From NCBI GenBank assembly GCA_026417135.1, contig JAOADV010000019.1, positions 1 to 37,129 on the forward strand: 37,129 bases of DNA, given 5' to 3'. Positions 1-12,411 of the stretch are shown here, piece after piece. The position numbers were made by a program, and so were the translations under genes. The notes beneath the pieces were generated by a model. That model did not search any database. It was given only the letters and a program-made list of their open reading frames with translations, and was not told the DNA's origin. Numbering within the stretch: position 1 is the first letter of the stretch; the number at the start of each line of letters is the position of its first letter. This DNA comes from Ignavibacteria bacterium (GTDB taxonomy: Bacteria; Bacteroidota; Ignavibacteria; Kapaibacteriales; UBA2268).

Positions 1-273
1 GGATTACAACTGCTCTGGGAGCTGGAGATGGTGTGATGTTGTTCTGTTTAAATCGAACTATGGTAGGATTACAACTGAGATATATTAGTTTTTTCCATAA
101 TTTGGTATTATATAGTTTAAATCGAACTATGGTAGGATTACAACCACGTCAGTCAAAAGACTGACGTGTTTTTCTTAAAGTTTAAATCGAACTATGGTAG
201 GATTACAACTAAATTTTGCCATTCGCTTCGTAAATGTCTGTTGGTTTAAATCGAACTATGGTAGGATTACAAT
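1..273 (+). CRISPR. CRISPR array, leader-distal end (partial)
   Basis: Direct repeats of 30 bp begin GTTTAAATCG and end GGATTACAAC. Copies lie at 46-75, 115-144, 180-209 and 244-273; the last 10 bases of another copy open the window at 1-10. Spacers are 11-45 (35 nt), 76-114 (39), 145-179 (35) and 210-243 (34). The internal copies are identical; the copy at 244-273 ends in T instead of C. A degenerate last repeat, and a 3' end (ATTACAAC) resembling the ATTGAAAC-type handle of type I and III repeats, suggest transcription on the plus strand with leader and cas genes left of the window. The type cannot be decided without cas genes. Confidence 0.97.
145..176 (+). terminator. Terminator-like hairpin inside CRISPR spacer 3
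   Basis: Spacer 3 contains a perfect 10-bp inverted repeat, CACGTCAGTC at 145-154 and GACTGACGTG at 159-168, with an AAAA loop. It is followed at once by TTTTTCTT (169-176). This is the layout of a Rho-independent terminator reading on the plus strand. Whether it works inside the array is unknown; the structure itself is read directly. Confidence 0.7.
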
Positions 274-350
274 GGTCCTATACTTTTGCCTTTGTTCCGA
301 TTCTATAAATTATTTCTTAAAATTGCACTTTGGTTTTTATATTGAATTCT

Positions 351-2594
351 ATGAAAGTTATCAAACTCGAAGAACTTTTCGAACGGGGTAGCAATACCCA
401 CGTTGCCGAAGTGCGTATTCCTATCCCGCTCGAAGCTTTTCTGGGACTCGTTTCGGAAAATCCTTCTTTCTATTTACGCGATATTTTTCAATTTTTCTAC
501 GATATGGTTTTCTTCTATGTGCGAAGCTTGCAAAAGCGTCCAAAATGGAAGGATTTTCAAATTTGGAACTACGATTTGAATCCTCTTTTAGCCGAAGGTT
601 GCGATAGCCCTTTTTTTGCCGATTCTATCTTTACAGAAAGGTTTTTGGATTTGGTAAGTTCTTTTAAAAAGCGACGAATTCAAAATTTTTTAATACTTTT
701 CGAAGGTCCACCGGGAAGCGGAAAGTCCACCTTTTTGAATAATCTCGTTCAAAAAATAGAAGTTTACGGGGCTCGCCCCGAAGGTGCTTTGTTCAAAACA
801 TATTGGAAAATCGATATCGATGCTATTCGCAAAGCAATGGGCGAAGAAGTAGCCGAAAGAGTCGGCGACGAGCTCGGCCAAGAACAGAAAAACGCTTCGA
901 GTAATTCAAAAACTCGTCGTTCATTGAATTTTTCTTGTCCACGACAAGACCACCCAATTATTCAAATTCCAAAGGATTTTCGCCACGATTTTCTGGATAA
1001 AATCATTGAAGACAAAGCTTTTAAAAAGAAATTGTTCGAAGAAAGGGAATACGAATGGGTCTTTAAGGAAAAGCCATGTAATATATGCCAATCGCTTTAT
1101 AACGTTCTTTTGGAGCGGTTAACGAAGCACACCGAAGTGTTGAGAATGGTCTATGCGCGACGCGCTGTTTTTCGTCGCTTGTTTGGCGTTGGAGTTAGCG
1201 TTTTTAACCCAAGCGACCCAATTCCTTCGGAGCCGTTTACGAATGAGTTTATCGAGAATAATCTTCGAAATCTTTTGCGAACCGATAATATCGACTTTAC
1301 GTATTCGGACCTTTCGTTTACAAGCAATGGGGTTTATGCATTAATGGATATCAAGGAAAATAATCTTGAACGACTCTTCCGATTGCATGGTATAATAAGC
1401 GATGGGATTCACAAGGTGAAACTTGTCGAAGAAAGGATAAAATCGTTGTTTTTGGGGTTAGTAAATCCAGAAGATAGGGAAAGTTTCGAAAATGTAAAGT
1501 CGTTTCGGGATAGAATAATTTATGTGAAAATCCCTTATGTGCTCGATTATAAAACGGAAATAGAAATTTACAAAGATAAATTCGGAGAAGAAATCGAAAA
1601 AAATTTTATGCCACATATATTGGAATTGTTTACGAAATGCATAGTTGCATCGCGTATCGAAAAAGGTGGCAATGCATTTAAGCAATGGATACCGGAGCCA
1701 ATGAAATACGAAAAATTGCTGGACAAAAACTATCGTCATTTAAAAATTATGGTTTTTGCGAGGGAAATTCCCAATTGGTTGGACGAAACCGACACAAAGA
1801 AATTCGATACGGACTTGATGAATTTAATTTTAAAAGAATCCGAAAGCGACGGCTTCCGAGGCATTTCTGGGCGACAGTCTCTTCAATTGTTTGGCGATTT
1901 TCTCGATAATGTCAAAGAAAGCGATGGGCTTATCACATTAGATAAAGTTATAAACTTCTTTTTGGATATTAACCTCTCGGAATTCAAAGAAGTTCCACAA
2001 GAATTGTTGATTATTTTAGCAAATGCATACGACTACGAAGTAACCCAAGAGGTTAAAGAATCGATGTATCATTTCAACAAGGAGGAAATCGAAAATCAAA
2101 TAGCCAATTACCTTTTTGCAATAAGTTTCGACGTTGGAGAAAAAGTTAAGTCACCATACACAAACGACGAACTCGAGATTACGGAGGAATTTTTTAGAAC
2201 TTTTGAAAAAGCTGTCCTTGGGGAAAATGTTTCACCTTTCGAAATGAAAAAATATCGCAAGGAAAACCAACATCTCTACGTAAACACTACCCTTGCCCAA
2301 GAAATAAATGTCGAAGGAAAAGATATTCGCCAGACAGAACAATTCATAAACATTTACAACCGATACATACAAAATTTGAAGGAAAACGCCTTGCTACCCT
2401 TTGTCGATAATATTAACTTTAAATCTGCACTTTTGGATTATGGTTCAGATGCATTCGAAAAATACGACGAAAAGATATGTAGCAAGATTAATCATTTAAT
2501 CACAACGCTTATCGAAAAATTTAAGTACACGCCTGAATCTGCCGTCAAAGTTGTTCAATACGTTTTCGAACAAAGACTCGACAAAAAATACTAG
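351..2594 (+). CDS. prkA: PrkA-family (YeaG-like) AAA+ serine protein kinase, divergent
   Basis: A 747-residue protein from ATG 351; an in-frame ATG at 330 would add seven residues with no better signal. The P-loop GPPGSGKST lies near residue 118. Landmarks follow in the order seen in PrkA: CPRQDHPIIQIP (PrkA CPxHExPLxLIP), an FGVGVSVFNPSDP segment, FRDRIIYVKIPYVL (PrkA FLDRIxxVKVPY), GISGRQSLQLF (GLSTRxAFK) and a C-terminal helical block like the PrkA tail. The family is normally about 640 residues, so this copy carries insertions. PrkA/YeaG is a cytoplasmic stress-linked kinase that in other bacteria is encoded next to YeaH (DUF444) and SpoVR. The YeaH homologue here is at 18828-20159, not adjacent, and SpoVR is not in the window. 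The gene starts 77 bases after the CRISPR array. Family assignment is firm; kinase substrates are unknown. Confidence 0.87.
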   Translation: MKVIKLEELFERGSNTHVAEVRIPIPLEAFLGLVSENPSFYLRDIFQFFYDMVFFYVRSLQKRPKWKDFQIWNYDLNPLLAEGCDSPFFADSIFTERFLDLVSSFKKRRIQNFLILFEGPPGSGKSTFLNNLVQKIEVYGARPEGALFKTYWKIDIDAIRKAMGEEVAERVGDELGQEQKNASSNSKTRRSLNFSCPRQDHPIIQIPKDFRHDFLDKIIEDKAFKKKLFEEREYEWVFKEKPCNICQSLYNVLLERLTKHTEVLRMVYARRAVFRRLFGVGVSVFNPSDPIPSEPFTNEFIENNLRNLLRTDNIDFTYSDLSFTSNGVYALMDIKENNLERLFRLHGIISDGIHKVKLVEERIKSLFLGLVNPEDRESFENVKSFRDRIIYVKIPYVLDYKTEIEIYKDKFGEEIEKNFMPHILELFTKCIVASRIEKGGNAFKQWIPEPMKYEKLLDKNYRHLKIMVFAREIPNWLDETDTKKFDTDLMNLILKESESDGFRGISGRQSLQLFGDFLDNVKESDGLITLDKVINFFLDINLSEFKEVPQELLIILANAYDYEVTQEVKESMYHFNKEEIENQIANYLFAISFDVGEKVKSPYTNDELEITEEFFRTFEKAVLGENVSPFEMKKYRKENQHLYVNTTLAQEINVEGKDIRQTEQFINIYNRYIQNLKENALLPFVDNINFKSALLDYGSDAFEKYDEKICSKINHLITTLIEKFKYTPESAVKVVQYVFEQRLDKKY

Positions 2595-3093
2595 ATGGAA
2601 AATCGACGAAATTCGTAGTTGAAGGAAAATTTCCTCAGACATAGCCGATAAGAAAATAAAAAGTTGCTGCAGAAAAGCGAAATTCCCAGATTTTCGGAAT
2701 AAATAAATTCCTTGCTAATTTTTTCGAGTAACTTTATGCCGCTTTCAAACAGTCTTCCCATTTTACTTGCAAAAGTTAATGATTAATTAATCGAAAATAA
2801 TCGAGATGCATTTGCTATTTCAATAAACTTTATCTACTTGGCATACGATAATTTTTTTCAAAACAAAGCACAATTTTTTTTGAAGATATTAAGAAGTTGT
2901 TAGTTTTACTGACTTTCATAATCGGTTTCAACAGTATGGTCTAAATTCAAAGATTAATATTTTTATTCTTTGCACTTGTATTTTTAGAATTTAAAAAAAT
3001 CAAAAAAGTAAGAAAAATTATAATAGATATTTAATAAATTTTTTAAATTAGAATACAAAAAAAGATAATAAATTTTTTAAAATAAATTTTCTT
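2595..3093. other. AT-rich intergenic region with a 16-bp direct repeat
   Basis: No coding frame is convincing here. The last 100 bases are almost pure A/T. TAATAAATTTTTTAAA occurs twice, at 3032-3047 and 3066-3081, 34 bases apart and ending 12 bases before the next start codon. This is probably the promoter region of the signalling cluster; the repeat could be an operator pair or simple AT-rich chance. Confidence 0.5.
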
Positions 3094-4020
3094 GTGGAAA
3101 GCGAAATTAATTTTGATATGCTTTTAATTCTTGACTTAATATTTGTGCTTCACTTATTTTTGTTAATTGTTGTTACAATTTTATATTCGATTCAACTACG
3201 TTTTATCAAAGCACTTGTCAGTGCTGGTAAAGGAATTATTTCTTTAGCTTTTTTTCTAGCTATAATCGGGCATGTTTTATTAGGACATTCATTTGAAATG
3301 CTTTTTAAACGATATGTAACGGAGGGTCTTCGAATTTTCCCAGAACTTTATAAAAGAATAATGCAGGAAACCAAAGAGGAAAAAGTTAAAATAGAGATTG
3401 ATGCGCCACCAGAGGTACAAGAAATAATTTCCATTGAAAATATTGGAATTCGTAAAATTCACAACAATCCAGATAGATATTCAGTTAATATTAAAGTAAG
3501 AAATAATAAAAAATGGTATTTTTATTTTGACTCTAAAAGTGCATTTATTGGGGAAATCCGACCTCTACAAACAAAAAGCTTTTCGAGAATAATTTTTGAA
3601 GTTGGTGAAGAAATTAAAATTACAATTACTGGGGGCGAAGGGCAGGTATATAGATACAACGTGTTAAATTCAATTTGGTTAGGAGCATTAAATGCCCCTA
3701 TTTTTGACCTTGATGGTGTCATTAAATTTTTAACAAAAGAGCTTGGTGAAAAAGCTATGGATTATGTCGAAGAAAGACCTGAAATTGTAGTAAAAGCATT
3801 AGTCAAAAAGAATTTCCTTCCAGCACAGACTAGACTAACAGATTTCGAAAAAGTATCTACGGCGGGTGCAACAGCTAAAAAAGTTTTAGTATTTCTCGAA
3901 CTTTCAACCGTTCCAGAAAGGCTTTCATACATAGATGAGTGGATAAGATTAGTAATGAAAAAGTTTACATTTACTATTAAATTAGTTGTTGGACAAGAAA
4001 ATCTACAAAATTTTAATTGA
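3094..4020 (+). CDS. Two-TM membrane protein of unknown function, first gene of the kinase/phosphatase cluster
   Basis: 308 residues from GTG 3094; an ATG at 3118 (residue 9) is an equally possible start. Two hydrophobic segments are visible, about residues 9-33 and 46-65, joined by a basic loop (QLRFIKALVSAGKG). By the positive-inside rule that loop would be cytoplasmic and the rest of the protein extracytoplasmic. Residues 95-200 are rich in beta-type stretches, and the last 100 residues look helical. No known domain is recognised. The stop is three bases before the PP2C gene, so the two are almost certainly co-transcribed. The A/T-heavy codon use matches the following genes and contrasts with prkA. 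An anchor or sensor for the kinase/phosphatase pair is an inference from position only. Confidence 0.72.
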   Translation: MESEINFDMLLILDLIFVLHLFLLIVVTILYSIQLRFIKALVSAGKGIISLAFFLAIIGHVLLGHSFEMLFKRYVTEGLRIFPELYKRIMQETKEEKVKIEIDAPPEVQEIISIENIGIRKIHNNPDRYSVNIKVRNNKKWYFYFDSKSAFIGEIRPLQTKSFSRIIFEVGEEIKITITGGEGQVYRYNVLNSIWLGALNAPIFDLDGVIKFLTKELGEKAMDYVEERPEIVVKALVKKNFLPAQTRLTDFEKVSTAGATAKKVLVFLELSTVPERLSYIDEWIRLVMKKFTFTIKLVVGQENLQNFN

Positions 4021-4023
4021 CAT

Positions 4024-4797
4024 ATGGATGATAATATTAAATTTTGGTATAAAATTTACACGGATAAAGGTAATAAAGAAAATAACGACGATGCATATTT
4101 GATGAAAAAGTTCACAGACATAGAGCCCAAGTTATTTTGTATGGTATGCGATGGTATGGGAGTAAATAAATTTGGTGGGGAAGCAGCTAAGATTGCAGTA
4201 AAATTTTTTGAAGACCATTTACAAGAAGACAATTTAAAAAATTTAACAAGGAAGGAAATTAAGGGATTTTTAAGAGAAATGATTTTCAAGGCACACAGAA
4301 AAATTCTAGAAAGCAAAGGAATTGATATAACCAATCGTTTCGTCGGAACAACTTTGAGTGCTCTGCTTTTTTTTAAGAAATATTATATGACCATACACAT
4401 TGGGGACAGCAGAATATATCTTTTTAGAAACGATAAACTCAAAAAACTTACCAAGGACCATACCATTCAGCCAAGAAAATTTGATATATCAAAAAAGTTT
4501 CATCCCTCTTACACAATCAGTAATGCATTAGGCATCGAAGGATTTGGCAATGCAGACATTTCAAATTTAAAAAACCTTGAAATAAACGACCTTTTCCTAC
4601 TTTGTACAGATGGACTTATTGATTTTCTCTGGGACTACGAAATATGTGAAATATTAAGAAATAATCCTGTCGAAAAAGTTATTGATAAACTTATCGAAAG
4701 ACAAAAGCAAAATTATGATATCTCTTTAATTTGCTCAAATTATAAAGACATAAAATTTGACGATACGACAATAATAATTGTGAAAATAGTTGAATAA
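4024..4797 (+). CDS. PP2C-family (PPM) serine/threonine phosphatase
   Basis: 257 residues, the size of a stand-alone bacterial PP2C catalytic domain, with no membrane segment. The metal-binding signature is complete: NNDDAY (residues 20-25), VCDGMG (Asp43), GTTLSALL (about 108), HIGDSRIY (Asp128), CTDGL (Asp196) and DDTT (Asp246-Asp247). Such enzymes remove phosphate from Ser/Thr residues with Mn or Mg and usually counteract a Hanks-type kinase. The kinase gene starts two bases after this stop, so the two very probably form a matched pair. The upstream membrane protein ends three bases before. The likely substrate is the kinase or a neighbouring cluster product; this is inferred. Confidence 0.93.
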   Translation: MDDNIKFWYKIYTDKGNKENNDDAYLMKKFTDIEPKLFCMVCDGMGVNKFGGEAAKIAVKFFEDHLQEDNLKNLTRKEIKGFLREMIFKAHRKILESKGIDITNRFVGTTLSALLFFKKYYMTIHIGDSRIYLFRNDKLKKLTKDHTIQPRKFDISKKFHPSYTISNALGIEGFGNADISNLKNLEINDLFLLCTDGLIDFLWDYEICEILRNNPVEKVIDKLIERQKQNYDISLICSNYKDIKFDDTTIIIVKIVE

Positions 4798-4799
4798 AT

Positions 4800-6521
4800 A
4801 TGGAAAAAGCTATAAAAATAATTAGGAAACCCAATTTAGCGAATTTGAAAAAACTGACCGAAGGAGGCTTTTGTTCTATTTATTCAATCAATGGAGAGAA
4901 TATCGACGAGCTGTTTGGGGTGAAGTTAAATCTCCCAAATGATAGAGACTATGTAATTAAAGTTCCTTCAAGAAACGAGGCAAGAATCAATTTTAAATAC
5001 TCATTAGGTATGGAGTATGAAAATTACAAGAGCATCTGTTCAAATAGAAAGTATTTTGCTAAATATTACAAATACTTATATTACGCCGAAGGAAATAAAT
5101 ATTTCGAATACTTAATAATGGAAAAAGCTGATAAGTCGTTAAGAATGTATTTACAAGATATATCCAAAATAAAAAAAACAAATCCACTTCAGGAACAAAA
5201 GATAAAATATGAGCTAATTAAAATTATTCTCAACATTTTCTTCGGATTGATTGATTGTCATAATTATCAAATAGTACACAGAGACATTAAACCAGAAAAC
5301 ATATTACTTTTTTTCAATGGAGAAAATTTGAATAAAGCGGTAATTAGTGATTTCGGGGTTTCTATACCAGAAATATATATCGACAATGCATATTTTCAAA
5401 GCTCATTTCTACCTTGTACAGCATTTTACGCCCCTTTAGAATACACAAGAGAAAACGAAATAACTATGCTTAATAATAAGTCCTTAAAAGAGATTTTCTC
5501 GCTTAGTGAAGGCAAACAGTACGGCATAAATTTCGACTTATGGTCCTTGGGTGTAATGATTTACGAAATGTTTTACCACAAGCACCCTTATTTAAATTTA
5601 GACTATGATAAGTTTCTTGAAATTTCCAAAAAGGTCGGGAATATGTATTTGGACTTTTTCGATTTTTTAAAACTAGCTGTTTACGGAGATAAAGAAATTT
5701 ACTTCAATAAAATTGACCACTATCTAAAAAACAAGGAATTAGGCTCATTTTTAAAAGAAATTTTTGTTGGAAATACTGAAATATCACCAGAAGAATTATC
5801 AGAAATACCATGCCCTCCATTAAGACAACTAACATCAGAAATGTTAAAAAAACATCCAAGAGAAAGAACTTATTGCTTAGATTCAAAAATCTTAATCGAC
5901 ATATTAGAGTGGTTCGTCAACGAAAAGCTATATGAAAATGAAAAAATTTTAACAATTGAATCTAGAATTAACACAGTTAAAAGATCTGCTCAAATTATGT
6001 TAAATCAAAAGAACGAAAAAATTAATTCTTATAAATCAATTATTGAAAATTTAAATGAAGATATAAACAATTTAAAAGAGGAAAATATAATTTTAAAACG
6101 GGAACTTTCCGAGAAAAACGAGAAACTAATGCAAATAGAAAAAGAATTTGAAAAAAATGAGAAAACAGATAATTCAAATTCCAATACATCACCTACAATA
6201 GAATTGACCACCGAAAGTTACGACATATTAAAAAATATTTCCGACAAGATAATCTCAATAGAAAAAAAGATTGAACTTTTAACAGAAACGATTACTACAA
6301 AACCCCAAATTGATATAACAGAATTTGAGGAAAATAATACAAATTCTAATGAAACAAAAATTCTAATAGAAAAAATATTCGAAAAAATGAACAATCAAGT
6401 TCTCTGCTTATATAATCTAATTCAGGAGGAAAATAAAAAATTAAAAACAAAGGTCGAAGAACTTCAAAGCAAGAACTCATACTTAATTCAAGTGTTAGGA
6501 AAAATACGTTTAAACTTGTAA
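4800..6521 (+). CDS. Hanks-type Ser/Thr protein kinase with C-terminal coiled coil
   Basis: 573 residues. The N-terminal kinase domain has a glycine loop (LTEGGFCSIYS, residues 19-29), VIK lysine at 54, catalytic HRDIKPEN starting at residue 160, DFG at 184-186 and an APE-like FYAPLEY. It therefore looks active. Residues about 385-573 are charged and heptad-like (NLNEDINNLKEENIILKREL and similar), giving a long coiled coil. There is no membrane segment, PASTA or other common sensor domain. It is coupled to the PP2C gene (two-base gap) and followed 15 bases later by a single-TM protein. Kinase plus phosphatase recalls TerY-P and other PP2C/kinase systems, but no TerY VWA gene or other hallmark is beside it. 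The coiled coil probably drives oligomerisation or partner binding; this is an inference. Confidence 0.92.
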   Translation: MEKAIKIIRKPNLANLKKLTEGGFCSIYSINGENIDELFGVKLNLPNDRDYVIKVPSRNEARINFKYSLGMEYENYKSICSNRKYFAKYYKYLYYAEGNKYFEYLIMEKADKSLRMYLQDISKIKKTNPLQEQKIKYELIKIILNIFFGLIDCHNYQIVHRDIKPENILLFFNGENLNKAVISDFGVSIPEIYIDNAYFQSSFLPCTAFYAPLEYTRENEITMLNNKSLKEIFSLSEGKQYGINFDLWSLGVMIYEMFYHKHPYLNLDYDKFLEISKKVGNMYLDFFDFLKLAVYGDKEIYFNKIDHYLKNKELGSFLKEIFVGNTEISPEELSEIPCPPLRQLTSEMLKKHPRERTYCLDSKILIDILEWFVNEKLYENEKILTIESRINTVKRSAQIMLNQKNEKINSYKSIIENLNEDINNLKEENIILKRELSEKNEKLMQIEKEFEKNEKTDNSNSNTSPTIELTTESYDILKNISDKIISIEKKIELLTETITTKPQIDITEFEENNTNSNETKILIEKIFEKMNNQVLCLYNLIQEENKKLKTKVEELQSKNSYLIQVLGKIRLNL

Positions 6522-9171: not shown

Positions 9172-9775
9172 TAATATTCATTTGTTTCTAAAACTTTTAT
9201 AGACATCGCCTTAGAAACTAAAAAAAGGTTTACTTAATTTAATTATGTCTAATTAATTTTTTTTGTTAATAATCTTATTTTTTGGTTGCCGGTATGTTTA
9301 CTTCTTAATCTATTACTACAAATATCTGAGAACTATATCGAGCCCAAATATTTACTAATAGCGTTGTGGACTATTTTTCGGGTACTTTTAATAACTCAAG
9401 GTCTTTTCACTTTTATGTTCACTTCTTTTTTACCATTTTCGCTATTCTCTTTACACTCTTAATCTATTTTCGAAAGCTACCAGATAATGGCCCACTTGAA
9501 AGATTCAAAAAGCTTCTTATTTAATATTCTGTCAATTCCATTTGTTTTATTACATTTCTTAGTTTCATTAATACATTTCTCAATTTAAATTAGAACAAAA
9601 TCAAAATATTTGTAAAATAAAGTTTTTAGAAATTAAAAAAAGGCTAATTACTTAGCATAAATTAATTGAAATGGATTTCCAAACATTTTGATGCGGGAAA
9701 AGTTCACAAACAATCAACTTTCATAATGATAATAAATTACTCTTTGATAAATTTGTTATTAAAAAAATATATAAT
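9172..9775. other. AT-rich intergenic region
   Basis: No credible gene is seen. GTTTCTAA (9184-9191) and TTAGAAAC (9211-9218) could form an 8-bp stem soon after the stop of the preceding gene, but it lacks a following T-tract. The remainder is low in G/C with no clear signal. Confidence 0.4.
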
Positions 9776-10171
9776 ATGTTAACTTACTTATTGGCAATTT
9801 GGTTTGTTGGTTGGTATTTATATTTAGTCTATTTTTATATACGATTTATTTTAATTCCAGAGAGGCATGCTTTCGAAAATTTTTTGCAAATGACCTGGAT
9901 TGAGACACAAAGGCAAGGTTCTATCCCCGAAAGGGTTTTGACAAAAATTTGCACCTTCTTCCTTAGGTTTCTAAAACCAAGTTATTTTGAGGCTTTCCTA
10001 CGAACCTTCATCGAAATGATACCAATAAATCCAATTAGACTAAAAGCCAAAAACCTTATTAAACTTGGGCTACCCAACGACGATCCTTTGGTAATTTGGG
10101 CAAAACGATTAATGGTTTTTAGAATAGGTTTTATTTTGATTTTACTATTGATGTTTTTCTTTTATATTTGA
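9776..10171 (+). CDS. Small membrane protein, unknown
   Basis: 131 residues. Hydrophobic helices lie at both ends, about residues 4-27 (LLAIWFVGWYLYLVYFYIRF) and 112-131 (FRIGFILILLLMFFFYI). Between them is a basic, amphipathic stretch (NPIRLKAKNLIKLGLPND). No Shine-Dalgarno is visible. It stands alone between two long non-coding stretches, so a functional link to either side is not evident. The regular hydrophobic pattern and AT-rich but protein-like composition favour a real gene; I do not recognise it. Confidence 0.5.
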   Translation: MLTYLLAIWFVGWYLYLVYFYIRFILIPERHAFENFLQMTWIETQRQGSIPERVLTKICTFFLRFLKPSYFEAFLRTFIEMIPINPIRLKAKNLIKLGLPNDDPLVIWAKRLMVFRIGFILILLLMFFFYI

Positions 10172-11079
10172 AAATCTCATTTACTATAAATAAAGTATTT
10201 GAAATCATTTAATTGGTCCCTCGTATGAAAACTTGTTAAAAGCCGTTAAATTTATTTCTCCAATTTGAAAGTTCAATTTGCCAAGACCAAATAGAAACAT
10301 TATTCGTTATTATTAAGTAGCATTAAAAAAGTGAAATGAAACCTTATTTTTTGTGCCCCTTCAAAAACTTCTTTTAATAAAAAATTGAAAAATTTCTGAA
10401 TAACCAGAATTTCCAAATTAGAAATCTTAATTAAGTTAAATTTTAACTTTGGAAGGAACCAAACTAATATTGAATCTTGTATATCCAATGTTCAGTAAGA
10501 TGCATTCTTTCAAGGCCAATGCGGTCAATAAAGTAAGATTTACATTTTTAAATAGTAAACATAAAAAATATTAATCCTATCAAAAAAGAAGCTAAAGTAT
10601 TTTTTTAAGTTTTTTTTTCAAAAGTTAAAGTAAATTCACTGGTAACTTTTTCAAATCTATATTAATTTATATTTAGTGAATCAGACACTTCAACTTACAA
10701 ACTAAATTTTGAACTTCAATTCATTGACAATCAACCAAAAGATACTGCCTCTCGTTGTATTGAGAAACTCCTAACAAAACAGTTATGACAAAATAGAATT
10801 TAAAACGATATTCAATTTATAGAGAACAAATAGAAAAAAAATACAAATGTATCCTTTAAAGTGAAAAAAACATTACTTTTAGTTCAGTGAACCTCCTATA
10901 CCTAATTTTAATATTCCTTTGTTATTACACTTAATCTTAAAATAAAAAGAATAACATTGTTTTTCGAATTATTAATGTTATCACACCTTCTAACTTATAC
11001 TAACCTATACACAACAGCATCACTCTATGAACTGTGCATTAGAACTACTATCTCATAATTCACAAAATTTGGGTAAATT
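10172..11079. other. Long AT-rich non-coding stretch
   Basis: About 900 bases without a convincing coding frame on either strand. A 17-base palindrome, AAGTTAAA/T/TTTAACTT, lies at 10433-10449. The right end is downstream of the minus-strand operon ending at 11080, but no T-rich terminator hairpin is obvious there. It could be decayed DNA at the edge of the AT-rich island. Confidence 0.4.
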
Positions 11080-12411
11080 TCACATTGACATCTTCGACAT
11101 AAAGCTTGAAAGAATATCACGTAGGTTGGGTTTACCAACTTCTGCTAATTCATAAAAAACTCGTGTGTATGGCTTGTTAATTTTGATGAATCGGGCAAGA
11201 TTTATTGGGGTCCCGATAACGACGCAGTCGCATTCGGTTCGGTTTATCGTTGCTTCGAGGTCTTTCATTTGCTGTTCTCCGTATCCCATCGCCGGAAGAA
11301 CATTTCCAATATCGGGATACTCTTCGAAAGTTTCGACAAGACTTCCAACAAGGTATGGGCGCGGGTCGACAAGTTCGGATGCACCAAATCGGCGCGCAGC
11401 GACAACAGCTGCTCCAATTGTCATTTCGCCATGCGTGAGCGTTGGTCCATCTTCGATTGCCAAAACTCTTTTGCCCTTTATTATTTCTAAATTTTCGACC
11501 ATAATCGCCGAAGCGGCAAGGACTATATCAGCTTTCGGATTATATTCCCGAACATTTTCAAGAACTATCTCGATATCTTCGGGATAAGCAGAATCGACTT
11601 TGTTCACAATTACCACATCTGCCATTCGCAAGTTAACTTCGCCCGGATAATACGAAATCTCGTGCCCGGGGCGTAATGGGTCCACAAGGACTATTGAAAG
11701 ATTAGGTTCAAAAAATGGAATATCGTTATTTCCACCATCCCAAACAATAATGTCGGCTTCCTTTTCTACTTCACGCAAAATTTCTTCGTAATCGACACCA
11801 GAATAAATTATGCTCCCCATAGCAATATGAGGTTCGTATTCTTCCATTTCTTCGATAGTGCAATTATGCTTGTGTAAATCATCGATTGAGGCGAAACGTT
11901 GTATTCGTTGCTTTTCGATATCGCCATATGGCATAGGATGGCGAACCGATACAACATTATAGTTCATTTCTCGAAGAATCTTGACAACCGCACGCGTGGT
12001 TTGGCTCTTCCCGCAACCAGTTCGCACAGCTGTAACGGAAATTACTGGTTTCGTCGACTTAAGCATCGTTTGTTTCGAACCGAGCATTGAAAATTTTGCT
12101 CCGTTTTTAAGAATTCTCGAACCTAAATGCATCACATAATCGTAGGATAGGTCGCTATAGGAAAGCACACATTCATCGATGCTATATTTTTCGATAAGCT
12201 CTTCCAACTCGGCTTCATCGAAAATCGGAATTCCGTTTGGATATAACTTCCCTGAAAGTGAAGGAGGATATATTCTACCTTCTATATTCGGTATTTGTGC
12301 AGCAGTAAATCCAACAACTTCATATTCGCTTTTGTTTCGGAAAAAAACATTGAAATTATGGAAATCGCGACCAGCTGCACCAAGAATTAAAACACGGGTT
12401 CTGTTATTCAT
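11080..12411 (-). CDS. Cyclic 2,3-diphosphoglycerate synthetase-like GTPase (COG2403 type)
   Basis: 443 residues. An N-terminal Rossmann-like part opens RVLILGAAGRDFHNFNVFF (residues 6-24). A P-loop domain follows, with TGCGKSQTTR (residues 131-140), IVWDGGNND and the nucleotide-specificity motif NKVD. The signatures YPPSLSGKLYP, VRHPMPYGD and LPAMGYGEQQ are those of the predicted-GTPase family often annotated as cyclic 2,3-diphosphoglycerate synthetase. Methanogens use the true enzyme to make a thermoprotectant; the bacterial relatives are uncharacterised as far as I know. The start overlaps the nagZ stop by four bases (ATGA), and it is the last gene of the carbamoyl-phosphate operon. That context argues for a role tied to carbamoyl phosphate or amino-acid fermentation and not to an osmolyte; this is inferred. 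Confidence 0.88.
   Translation of the reverse strand: MNNRTRVLILGAAGRDFHNFNVFFRNKSEYEVVGFTAAQIPNIEGRIYPPSLSGKLYPNGIPIFDEAELEELIEKYSIDECVLSYSDLSYDYVMHLGSRILKNGAKFSMLGSKQTMLKSTKPVISVTAVRTGCGKSQTTRAVVKILREMNYNVVSVRHPMPYGDIEKQRIQRFASIDDLHKHNCTIEEMEEYEPHIAMGSIIYSGVDYEEILREVEKEADIIVWDGGNNDIPFFEPNLSIVLVDPLRPGHEISYYPGEVNLRMADVVIVNKVDSAYPEDIEIVLENVREYNPKADIVLAASAIMVENLEIIKGKRVLAIEDGPTLTHGEMTIGAAVVAARRFGASELVDPRPYLVGSLVETFEEYPDIGNVLPAMGYGEQQMKDLEATINRTECDCVVIGTPINLARFIKINKPYTRVFYELAEVGKPNLRDILSSFMSKMSM

Follow-up and report, generated by a model that had tools for sequence, protein, structure and literature searches.

The spacer at positions 145–179 of the window (the whole 37,129-nt stretch of DNA analysed here) has the shape of a transcription terminator, and is best explained as an ordinary type III-A CRISPR spacer carrying a captured terminator that faces the direction of array transcription. 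From the sequence evidence we give this reading a probability of roughly 0.6; such a spacer would cause a partial stop of transcription and yield a crRNA that is a poor guide, at a small cost. The spacer would have been captured from some element at a site bearing an intrinsic (Rho-independent) terminator, and inserted so that the terminator faces the direction in which the array is transcribed. Some RNA polymerases would then stop at about positions 169–177, lowering the amount of RNA made from the last repeat, spacer 210–243, and the terminal repeat, and fewer transcripts would run on into the prkA-like gene; an elongation complex loaded with Nus factors at boxA could let some share through. 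In the crRNA, the hairpin spacer probably pairs with itself, so that it would serve poorly as a guide. Because almost nothing lies downstream of the stop, the cost would be small, which could account for the persistence of the spacer.

The window corresponds to contig C10 from its base 1, in a genome of 2.24 Mb and 63 contigs, and this base falls inside a CRISPR array with a 30-nt repeat of consensus GTTTAAATCGAACTATGGTAGGATTACAAC (Table 1). The sequence at 145–179 is a unique 35-nt segment flanked by two identical repeats, as befits a CRISPR spacer, with a presumed link to the cas genes on a second contig, C12. It is the third spacer within the window only, and the second as counted from the trailer; the leader end of the array presumably sits on C12. 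Two repeats and one spacer follow it, as had been predicted. Altered terminal repeats like the one seen here are reported for 11 of 14 Cas12a arrays in the available text of PMC6610086. Read-through from the array would enter the ORF beyond the last repeat, the product of which matches the PrkA C-terminal domain (E 3e-33) and, more weakly, AAA_PrkA. The adjoining plus-strand genes at 3094–6521 encode a protein that matches nothing in Pfam, a phosphatase of the PP2C type, and a Ser/Thr protein kinase extended by a long C-terminal region, and are possibly a signalling or defence module.

Table 1. Features of the array end on contig C10 and the reading frame that follows it (window positions).
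Feature	Position	Strand
CRISPR repeat remnant, last 10 bases, cut by the contig start	1–10	+
Spacer	11–45	+
CRISPR repeat, 30 nt	46–75	+
Spacer, AT-rich	76–114	+
CRISPR repeat, 30 nt	115–144	+
Hairpin spacer, terminator-shaped, penultimate from the trailer	145–179	+
Perfect 10-bp stem with AAAA loop (inverted repeat)	145–168	+
T-tract TTTTTCTT, adjoining the 3′ side of the stem (plus strand only)	169–176	+
CRISPR repeat, 3′ of the hairpin spacer	180–209	+
Last spacer, 3′ of the hairpin spacer	210–243	+
Terminal repeat, final base altered (ATTACAAT vs ATTACAAC), ends in T	244–273	+
PrkA-like ORF, same strand as the array, 77 nt past the last repeat	351–2594	+

The hairpin spacer reads CACGTCAGTC-AAAA-GACTGACGTG, followed by TTTTTCTTAAA. 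As RNA, it folds with −16.6 kcal/mol (z = −5.6), and none of 200 shuffles did equally well. With 10 bp, 6 GC pairs, and a loop of 4, the stem is of the kind found in Rho-independent terminators, and the U-tract follows directly on the strand on which the array appears to be read. There is no T-tract after the stem on the minus strand, and the terminator score (d'Aubenton-Carafa formula) is +27 for the plus strand and −25 for the minus strand. The original prediction of a CRISPR spacer with a perfect 10-bp stem, an AAAA loop, and a T-tract, shaped as a plus-strand terminator, is thus borne out, and its coordinates are correct. In a lax scan of positions 1–3000, the spacer hairpin was the only terminator-like site on the plus strand; because the count on both strands was 3 sites compared with 2.5 in shuffles, the count alone is uninformative. 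A strict scan (stem of at least 7, at least 4 GC pairs, at least 6 T in 8) of both strands of the 37-kb window returned the spacer hairpin as sole match, and since 10 window shuffles gave 0–2 matches each (mean 0.6), a single strict site in 37 kb is unsurprising. The hairpin was again the sole match when a stem of at least 10 was demanded, with 10 matches in 100 window shuffles. Such a structure within a spacer is hardly given by chance, and as a fold it lies beyond chance. The predicted fold of positions 46–273 retains the hairpin.

Whether the hairpin can act as a terminator depends on the strand that is transcribed. Within the whole genome, repeat copies outside C10 (at most 3 mismatches) are found only at the start of contig C12, where cas1, cas2, a leader of about 285 nt, a repeat, a spacer, and a second repeat follow one another toward the contig end. 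C12 also encodes Cas10/Csm1, Csm2, Csm3, Csm4, Csm5, and Cas6, together with a member of a ring-nuclease family and further CRISPR-associated proteins. The assignment to type III-A follows from Cas10/Csm1, Csm2–Csm5, and Cas6, each above its NCBIfam cut-off, on a contig whose end bears the same repeat. The repeats have the same orientation on C10 and C12, and because the truncated ends match and no third contig bears this repeat when 3 mismatches are allowed, we infer that the two contigs hold the two ends of one array, the middle of which is unassembled. In related loci, the array follows cas1 on the same strand and with the same repeat orientation in all 33 loci that have an array (of 40 loci), and the repeats in these loci have ATTGAAA(C/T) or a near form at the 3′ end. 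Exceptions among the 16 array-bearing named loci are L040 and L046, where the array lies on the opposite side of cas1, in L046 also with reversed orientation; the repeat orientation of L026, another of the 16, is ambiguous. The position of the leader side beyond cas1–cas2, the orientation of the repeats, and the altered terminal repeat together make it most likely that the array is read on the plus strand of the window, with the hairpin spacer as the penultimate one. A reading on the minus strand, named in the original prediction as the outcome that would speak against it, is argued against by the cas1–cas2–leader order on C12 and by the orientation in the relatives.

Three type III-A accessory proteins are encoded in the C12 locus (L007) at 2559–3611, 9608–10510, and 10518–11711. 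These are a ring-nuclease family protein, a protein in which a P-loop-like motif (GNPHTGKS, recognised by eye) comes after a Csx3 domain, and a TIGR02221/DxTHG protein.

A host that does not use intrinsic terminators was suggested by the strict scan of 20 kb of C12, which gave no site, and of the window, which gave none besides that in the spacer. This possibility was dropped in view of longer stretches of sequence. The strict scan returned 8 terminators in 200 kb of host contig C22 (2 in one shuffle), and 11 in a 200-kb stretch of G001, a genome of the same genus (0 in one shuffle); in E. coli K-12, it returned 11 in 50 kb compared with 1.0. Three of the eight terminators on C22 are located 10–22 nt past a same-strand stop codon (ORFs of at least 100 aa), three others 51, 135, and 344 nt past a stop codon, and the remaining two inside ORFs. 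The lineage possesses canonical intrinsic terminators, though they are sparse.

Terminators are also found, at a low rate, in the spacers of relatives. The oriented arrays of Cas1 relatives supplied 5525 distinct spacers, in which self-contained terminators (stem of at least 8, with the T-rich tail inside the spacer) number 4 in the sense and 2 in the antisense orientation, compared with 0.0 and 0.2 per pass in shuffles; one spacer scores in both counts. With looser tails, an earlier set of 2815 spacers gave 7 sense and 6 antisense cases (1.0 and 2.2 in shuffles). In a set of 5026 spacers, terminators with a perfect stem were found in 21 sense and 9 antisense cases, where the sense count is aided by the T's that open the next repeat; calls made for this set by fold energy were noisy and are left aside. 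L026 was omitted from the set of 2815 for its ambiguous repeat orientation, and L046 was reverse-complemented. In the later array build, 33 of 132 loci are without a usable array, mostly without any array, and the arrays of L026, L042, and L046 were dropped for orientation scores differing by less than 2 or a repeat that is too short. No depletion of sense relative to antisense terminators was seen in the sets of 2815, 5026, and 5525 spacers. Terminators are captured occasionally and in both orientations, and the array-stopping orientation is not visibly avoided. A literature search covering titles and abstract openings, with most subscription papers outside its range, found no spacer described as an intrinsic terminator.

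With respect to the crRNA, the expectation that it would fold on itself agrees with the predicted structure. An RNA of the 8-nt handle and the hairpin spacer is predicted to form the same hairpin with −17.0 kcal/mol at 37 °C, the stem-loop taking up spacer positions 1–24, and in this model the guide would pair with its target only with difficulty. A point against the preferred reading is that the stem, with 6 GC pairs of 10, is predicted to lose stability with heat, the values being −9.3 kcal/mol (60 °C) and −6.5 kcal/mol (70 °C). Structured regions lower crRNA abundance in Cas12a arrays, according to the available text of PMC6610086, and by analogy the same may hold for Csm systems.

The suggestion that the spacer attenuates its own array, and is of regulatory interest for that reason, fares less evenly. 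The orientation of the terminator agrees with attenuation, but a regulatory role loses weight because no more than one spacer and the terminal repeat follow the hairpin, and because relatives, too, have spacers with terminators, at a low and ordinary rate. Attenuation could also be lessened, since the leader carries a putative boxA. This leads to the foremost rival explanation, in which the leader boxA recruits a Nus antitermination complex and polymerase passes the hairpin, so that the spacer affects its own crRNA only. We regard this as conceivable but unlikely. It draws its strength from rRNA-type sense-strand motifs in all eight array-bearing CRISPR leaders found in the family and from the presence of a nusB gene in the host genome.

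At the rRNA loci of the family, GTTCTTTGAAAA or a near form lies at most 160 nt upstream of 16S in 19 of 21 cases; one locus has it at −201, and one is without it. A weight matrix built from 19 rRNA leaders of other genera, with the own genus not represented, assigns 11.6 bits to a sense-strand motif of rRNA type at −87 in the own CRISPR leader (TTGCTCTTTGAAAAGAGGAGAATT; L007 180–193, minus strand). This score was reached by 6 of 2000 shuffles, by none of 400 in a second run, and by 6 of 399,540 background positions (the two strands of a 200-kb stretch of the own genome). A boxA-like motif is found in each of the eight family leaders with an array (L007, L108, L109, L110, L111, L113, L116, and L147). 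Seven of them score at least 11.5 bits (0/400 shuffles each) and the eighth 8.1 bits (3/400), with all antisense scores below 0. Outside the family, a score of 11.5 bits is reached by 1 of 104 array starts from 98 loci, a set that includes second arrays of a locus and possibly some leaders mis-cut inside arrays. The position of the motif relative to the first repeat is largely conserved in the family. It stands at −87 in the own array and at −88 in the counterpart from the same genus, and five leaders from other genera have it between −147 and −151; the second array of G001, with −48, departs from this. The leader region gave no match to Rfam. Judged from these motifs, transcription of the arrays in this family may run with Nus antitermination factors, and the putative boxA in eight of eight family CRISPR leaders, new here, is the firmest by-product of the analysis.

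Two further observations were made on leaders and rRNA loci. Many of the related leaders outside the family that are without boxA (e.g., L112, L115, and L128–L131) have a GTCGTCG...CGACGAC-like inverted repeat about 50–100 nt before the first repeat, as seen by eye. For 16S in genus g1 (G000–G004), there was no match in the five genomes, although G001 is a single 2.66-Mb contig; 5 candidates were scored in each, and the shallow depth of this search may account for the absence.

Several points speak against free passage of the polymerase through the hairpin. The resistance that boxA confers is weaker for intrinsic than for Rho-dependent terminators. The core of the own boxA is a short palindrome (CTCTT-TGAA-AAGAG) that might have another role, and the top background match, which is located inside an ORF, scores 23.9 bits and thus exceeds the own leader. 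The plain 14-base motif of the leader has no second exact copy in the own genome, but when one mismatch is allowed there are 8 matches compared with 6 for a reversed control. The own rRNA leader is unassembled, and the match is therefore to the rRNA leaders of other genera. That boxA can precede CRISPR arrays is already known (PMC7862264 and PMC10883916, citing Stringer et al. 2020, eLife), and the array effects described in the available text of the first two sources have to do with Rho-dependent termination.

Another explanation, which we consider improbable, is that a terminator spacer at the far end is kept as the array's own terminator, curbing extraneous crRNA from the terminal repeat as well as read-through to the next gene. 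The lax scan of positions 1–3000 found no further plus-strand terminator-like site between the array and the PrkA-like ORF, and hairpins seem to accumulate in terminal spacers. In 61 arrays of relatives with complete trailer ends, a perfect stem of 8 bp or more occurs in 7 of 122 spacers at the last two positions compared with 32 of 2932 elsewhere (Fisher p 7e-4). With the two arrays that prompted the idea removed, the numbers are 4/118 and 44/4805 (p 0.027), where the latter count includes arrays without a complete end. The first two spacers of relatives' arrays have stems in 3 of 184 cases. In G001, of the same genus, both of the last two spacers contain 11-bp stems, and the last spacer of L118 is a classic sense terminator. 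For type II-C systems, suppression of extraneous crRNA by terminators and hairpins is described in the available text of PMC12080349. However, the idea of terminal hairpins arose post hoc from the same data, and the test set beforehand was meant for arrays of other phyla, with a signal that fails to replicate to be taken as chance. The small set added, from the same phylum, had stems in 0 of 16 terminal and 0 of 511 other spacers (527 in total), which is too small to decide; by that rule, the excess of hairpins in terminal spacers is unproven. The mean fold energy of last spacers shows no difference from that of other spacers (p 0.8), one of the four strict sense terminators falls in the last two spacers, and several terminal hairpins have no T-tract, lie in the opposite orientation, or are REP-like repeats. 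A terminator is present in 5 of 61 trailers, and arrays are thus commonly without one. A combined version holds that family leaders load a Nus complex via boxA and that terminator spacers persist mainly on the trailer side, where they would cut the pre-crRNA off ahead of the terminal repeat and limit both extraneous crRNA and read-through into the neighbour gene; this we find equally doubtful.

In the same-genus locus L108 (about 4300–4500 in array orientation), the palindrome of the last spacer resembles tandem palindromes of the GTAGGGGCGAATGATTATTCGCCCCTAC type in its own trailer. This spacer may derive from interspersed repeats of the host itself.

Returning to the captured terminator, the original prediction that it was acquired from the 3′ end of a gene on a mobile element agrees with its shape, but a protospacer was found neither among viral and genome contigs nor among phages, plasmids, and the 54 genomes of the family. 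The full stem pattern of the hairpin spacer had no exact match in the viral contigs, and the exact pattern none in the genome contigs. A blastn comparison gave weak partial matches to three phage records only (E 4) and none to plasmids, and at up to 2 mismatches the own copy was the only one in the 54 family genomes. As no protospacer was found, we infer from the shape that the spacer derives from the terminator of a mobile element. Two viral contigs share its inner 18 bases in the same sequence; without the outer stem and the T-tract, they are judged to be chance matches and rejected as the source. An origin from the host's own terminators was likewise rejected, since there is no second copy in its own genome or in the family. 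As for the other spacers, a 20-base piece of spacer 11–45 had no match in viral contigs, and the spacer had none in phages. A 20-base piece of spacer 76–114 occurs in three viral contigs, where 25–28 of 39 bases of the full spacer agree, and was set aside as chance. The last spacer (210–243) had no viral-contig match for its 20-base piece, and its phage matches were two partial ones of 22 bases to Listeria phages (E 0.4). The viral contigs were also scanned with a 20-base piece of the first C12 spacer, and the phage comparison beyond the hairpin spacer covered the two spacers 11–45 and 210–243.

That the palindrome comes from another kind of source element (an operator or a REP-like repeat), with T's following by chance, is an idea to which the REP-like palindrome in the last spacer of a same-genus array and the T-tract-free viral matches to the inner 18 bases lend some colour, but it is improbable given that a stem with a 4-nt loop, adjoined at once by 8 bases of which 7 are T, has the layout of a terminator, that the two viral matches are without the outer stem as well, and that neither the rest of the own genome nor the other 53 genomes of the family hold a further copy; such a palindrome could in any case still act as a terminator if transcribed.

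CRISPR arrays need transcription through whatever their spacers contain. A terminator spacer behind a leader with a putative boxA would therefore be a natural test of whether antitermination acts not only over Rho-dependent stops but also over intrinsic ones. The array also lets one ask about the fate of spacers behind a stop signal. The hairpin spacer itself, though of a rare kind, probably arose by chance in the normal course of spacer capture.

Compared with known Rho-independent terminators, the hairpin spacer has the same stable stem, small loop, immediate U-tract, and correct strand, but it lies within a CRISPR spacer instead of after a gene, and its termination is a prediction. The Cas12a arrays in the available text of PMC6610086, including a novicida spacer, offer a likeness in that a spacer with structure should yield crRNA that is scarce or badly processed. 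There, the cause is mainly misfolding of Cas12a repeats, whereas the structure described here is a closed hairpin inside the spacer of a Cas6/Csm system. In type II-C, as far as the text of PMC12080349 was available, a terminator or hairpin is likewise placed so that the extra repeat yields little RNA, but it is found upstream of the array and outside the spacers, and not, as here, inside one of the spacers on the trailer side of a type III-A array. Finally, the boxA-mediated antitermination of arrays (Stringer et al. 2020, as represented in the available text of PMC7862264 and PMC10883916) shares with this locus a boxA in the leader before the array. In the present case, the boxA is a candidate, the locus is of type III-A and belongs to another bacterial family, and the terminator is an intrinsic one that lies within the array itself.
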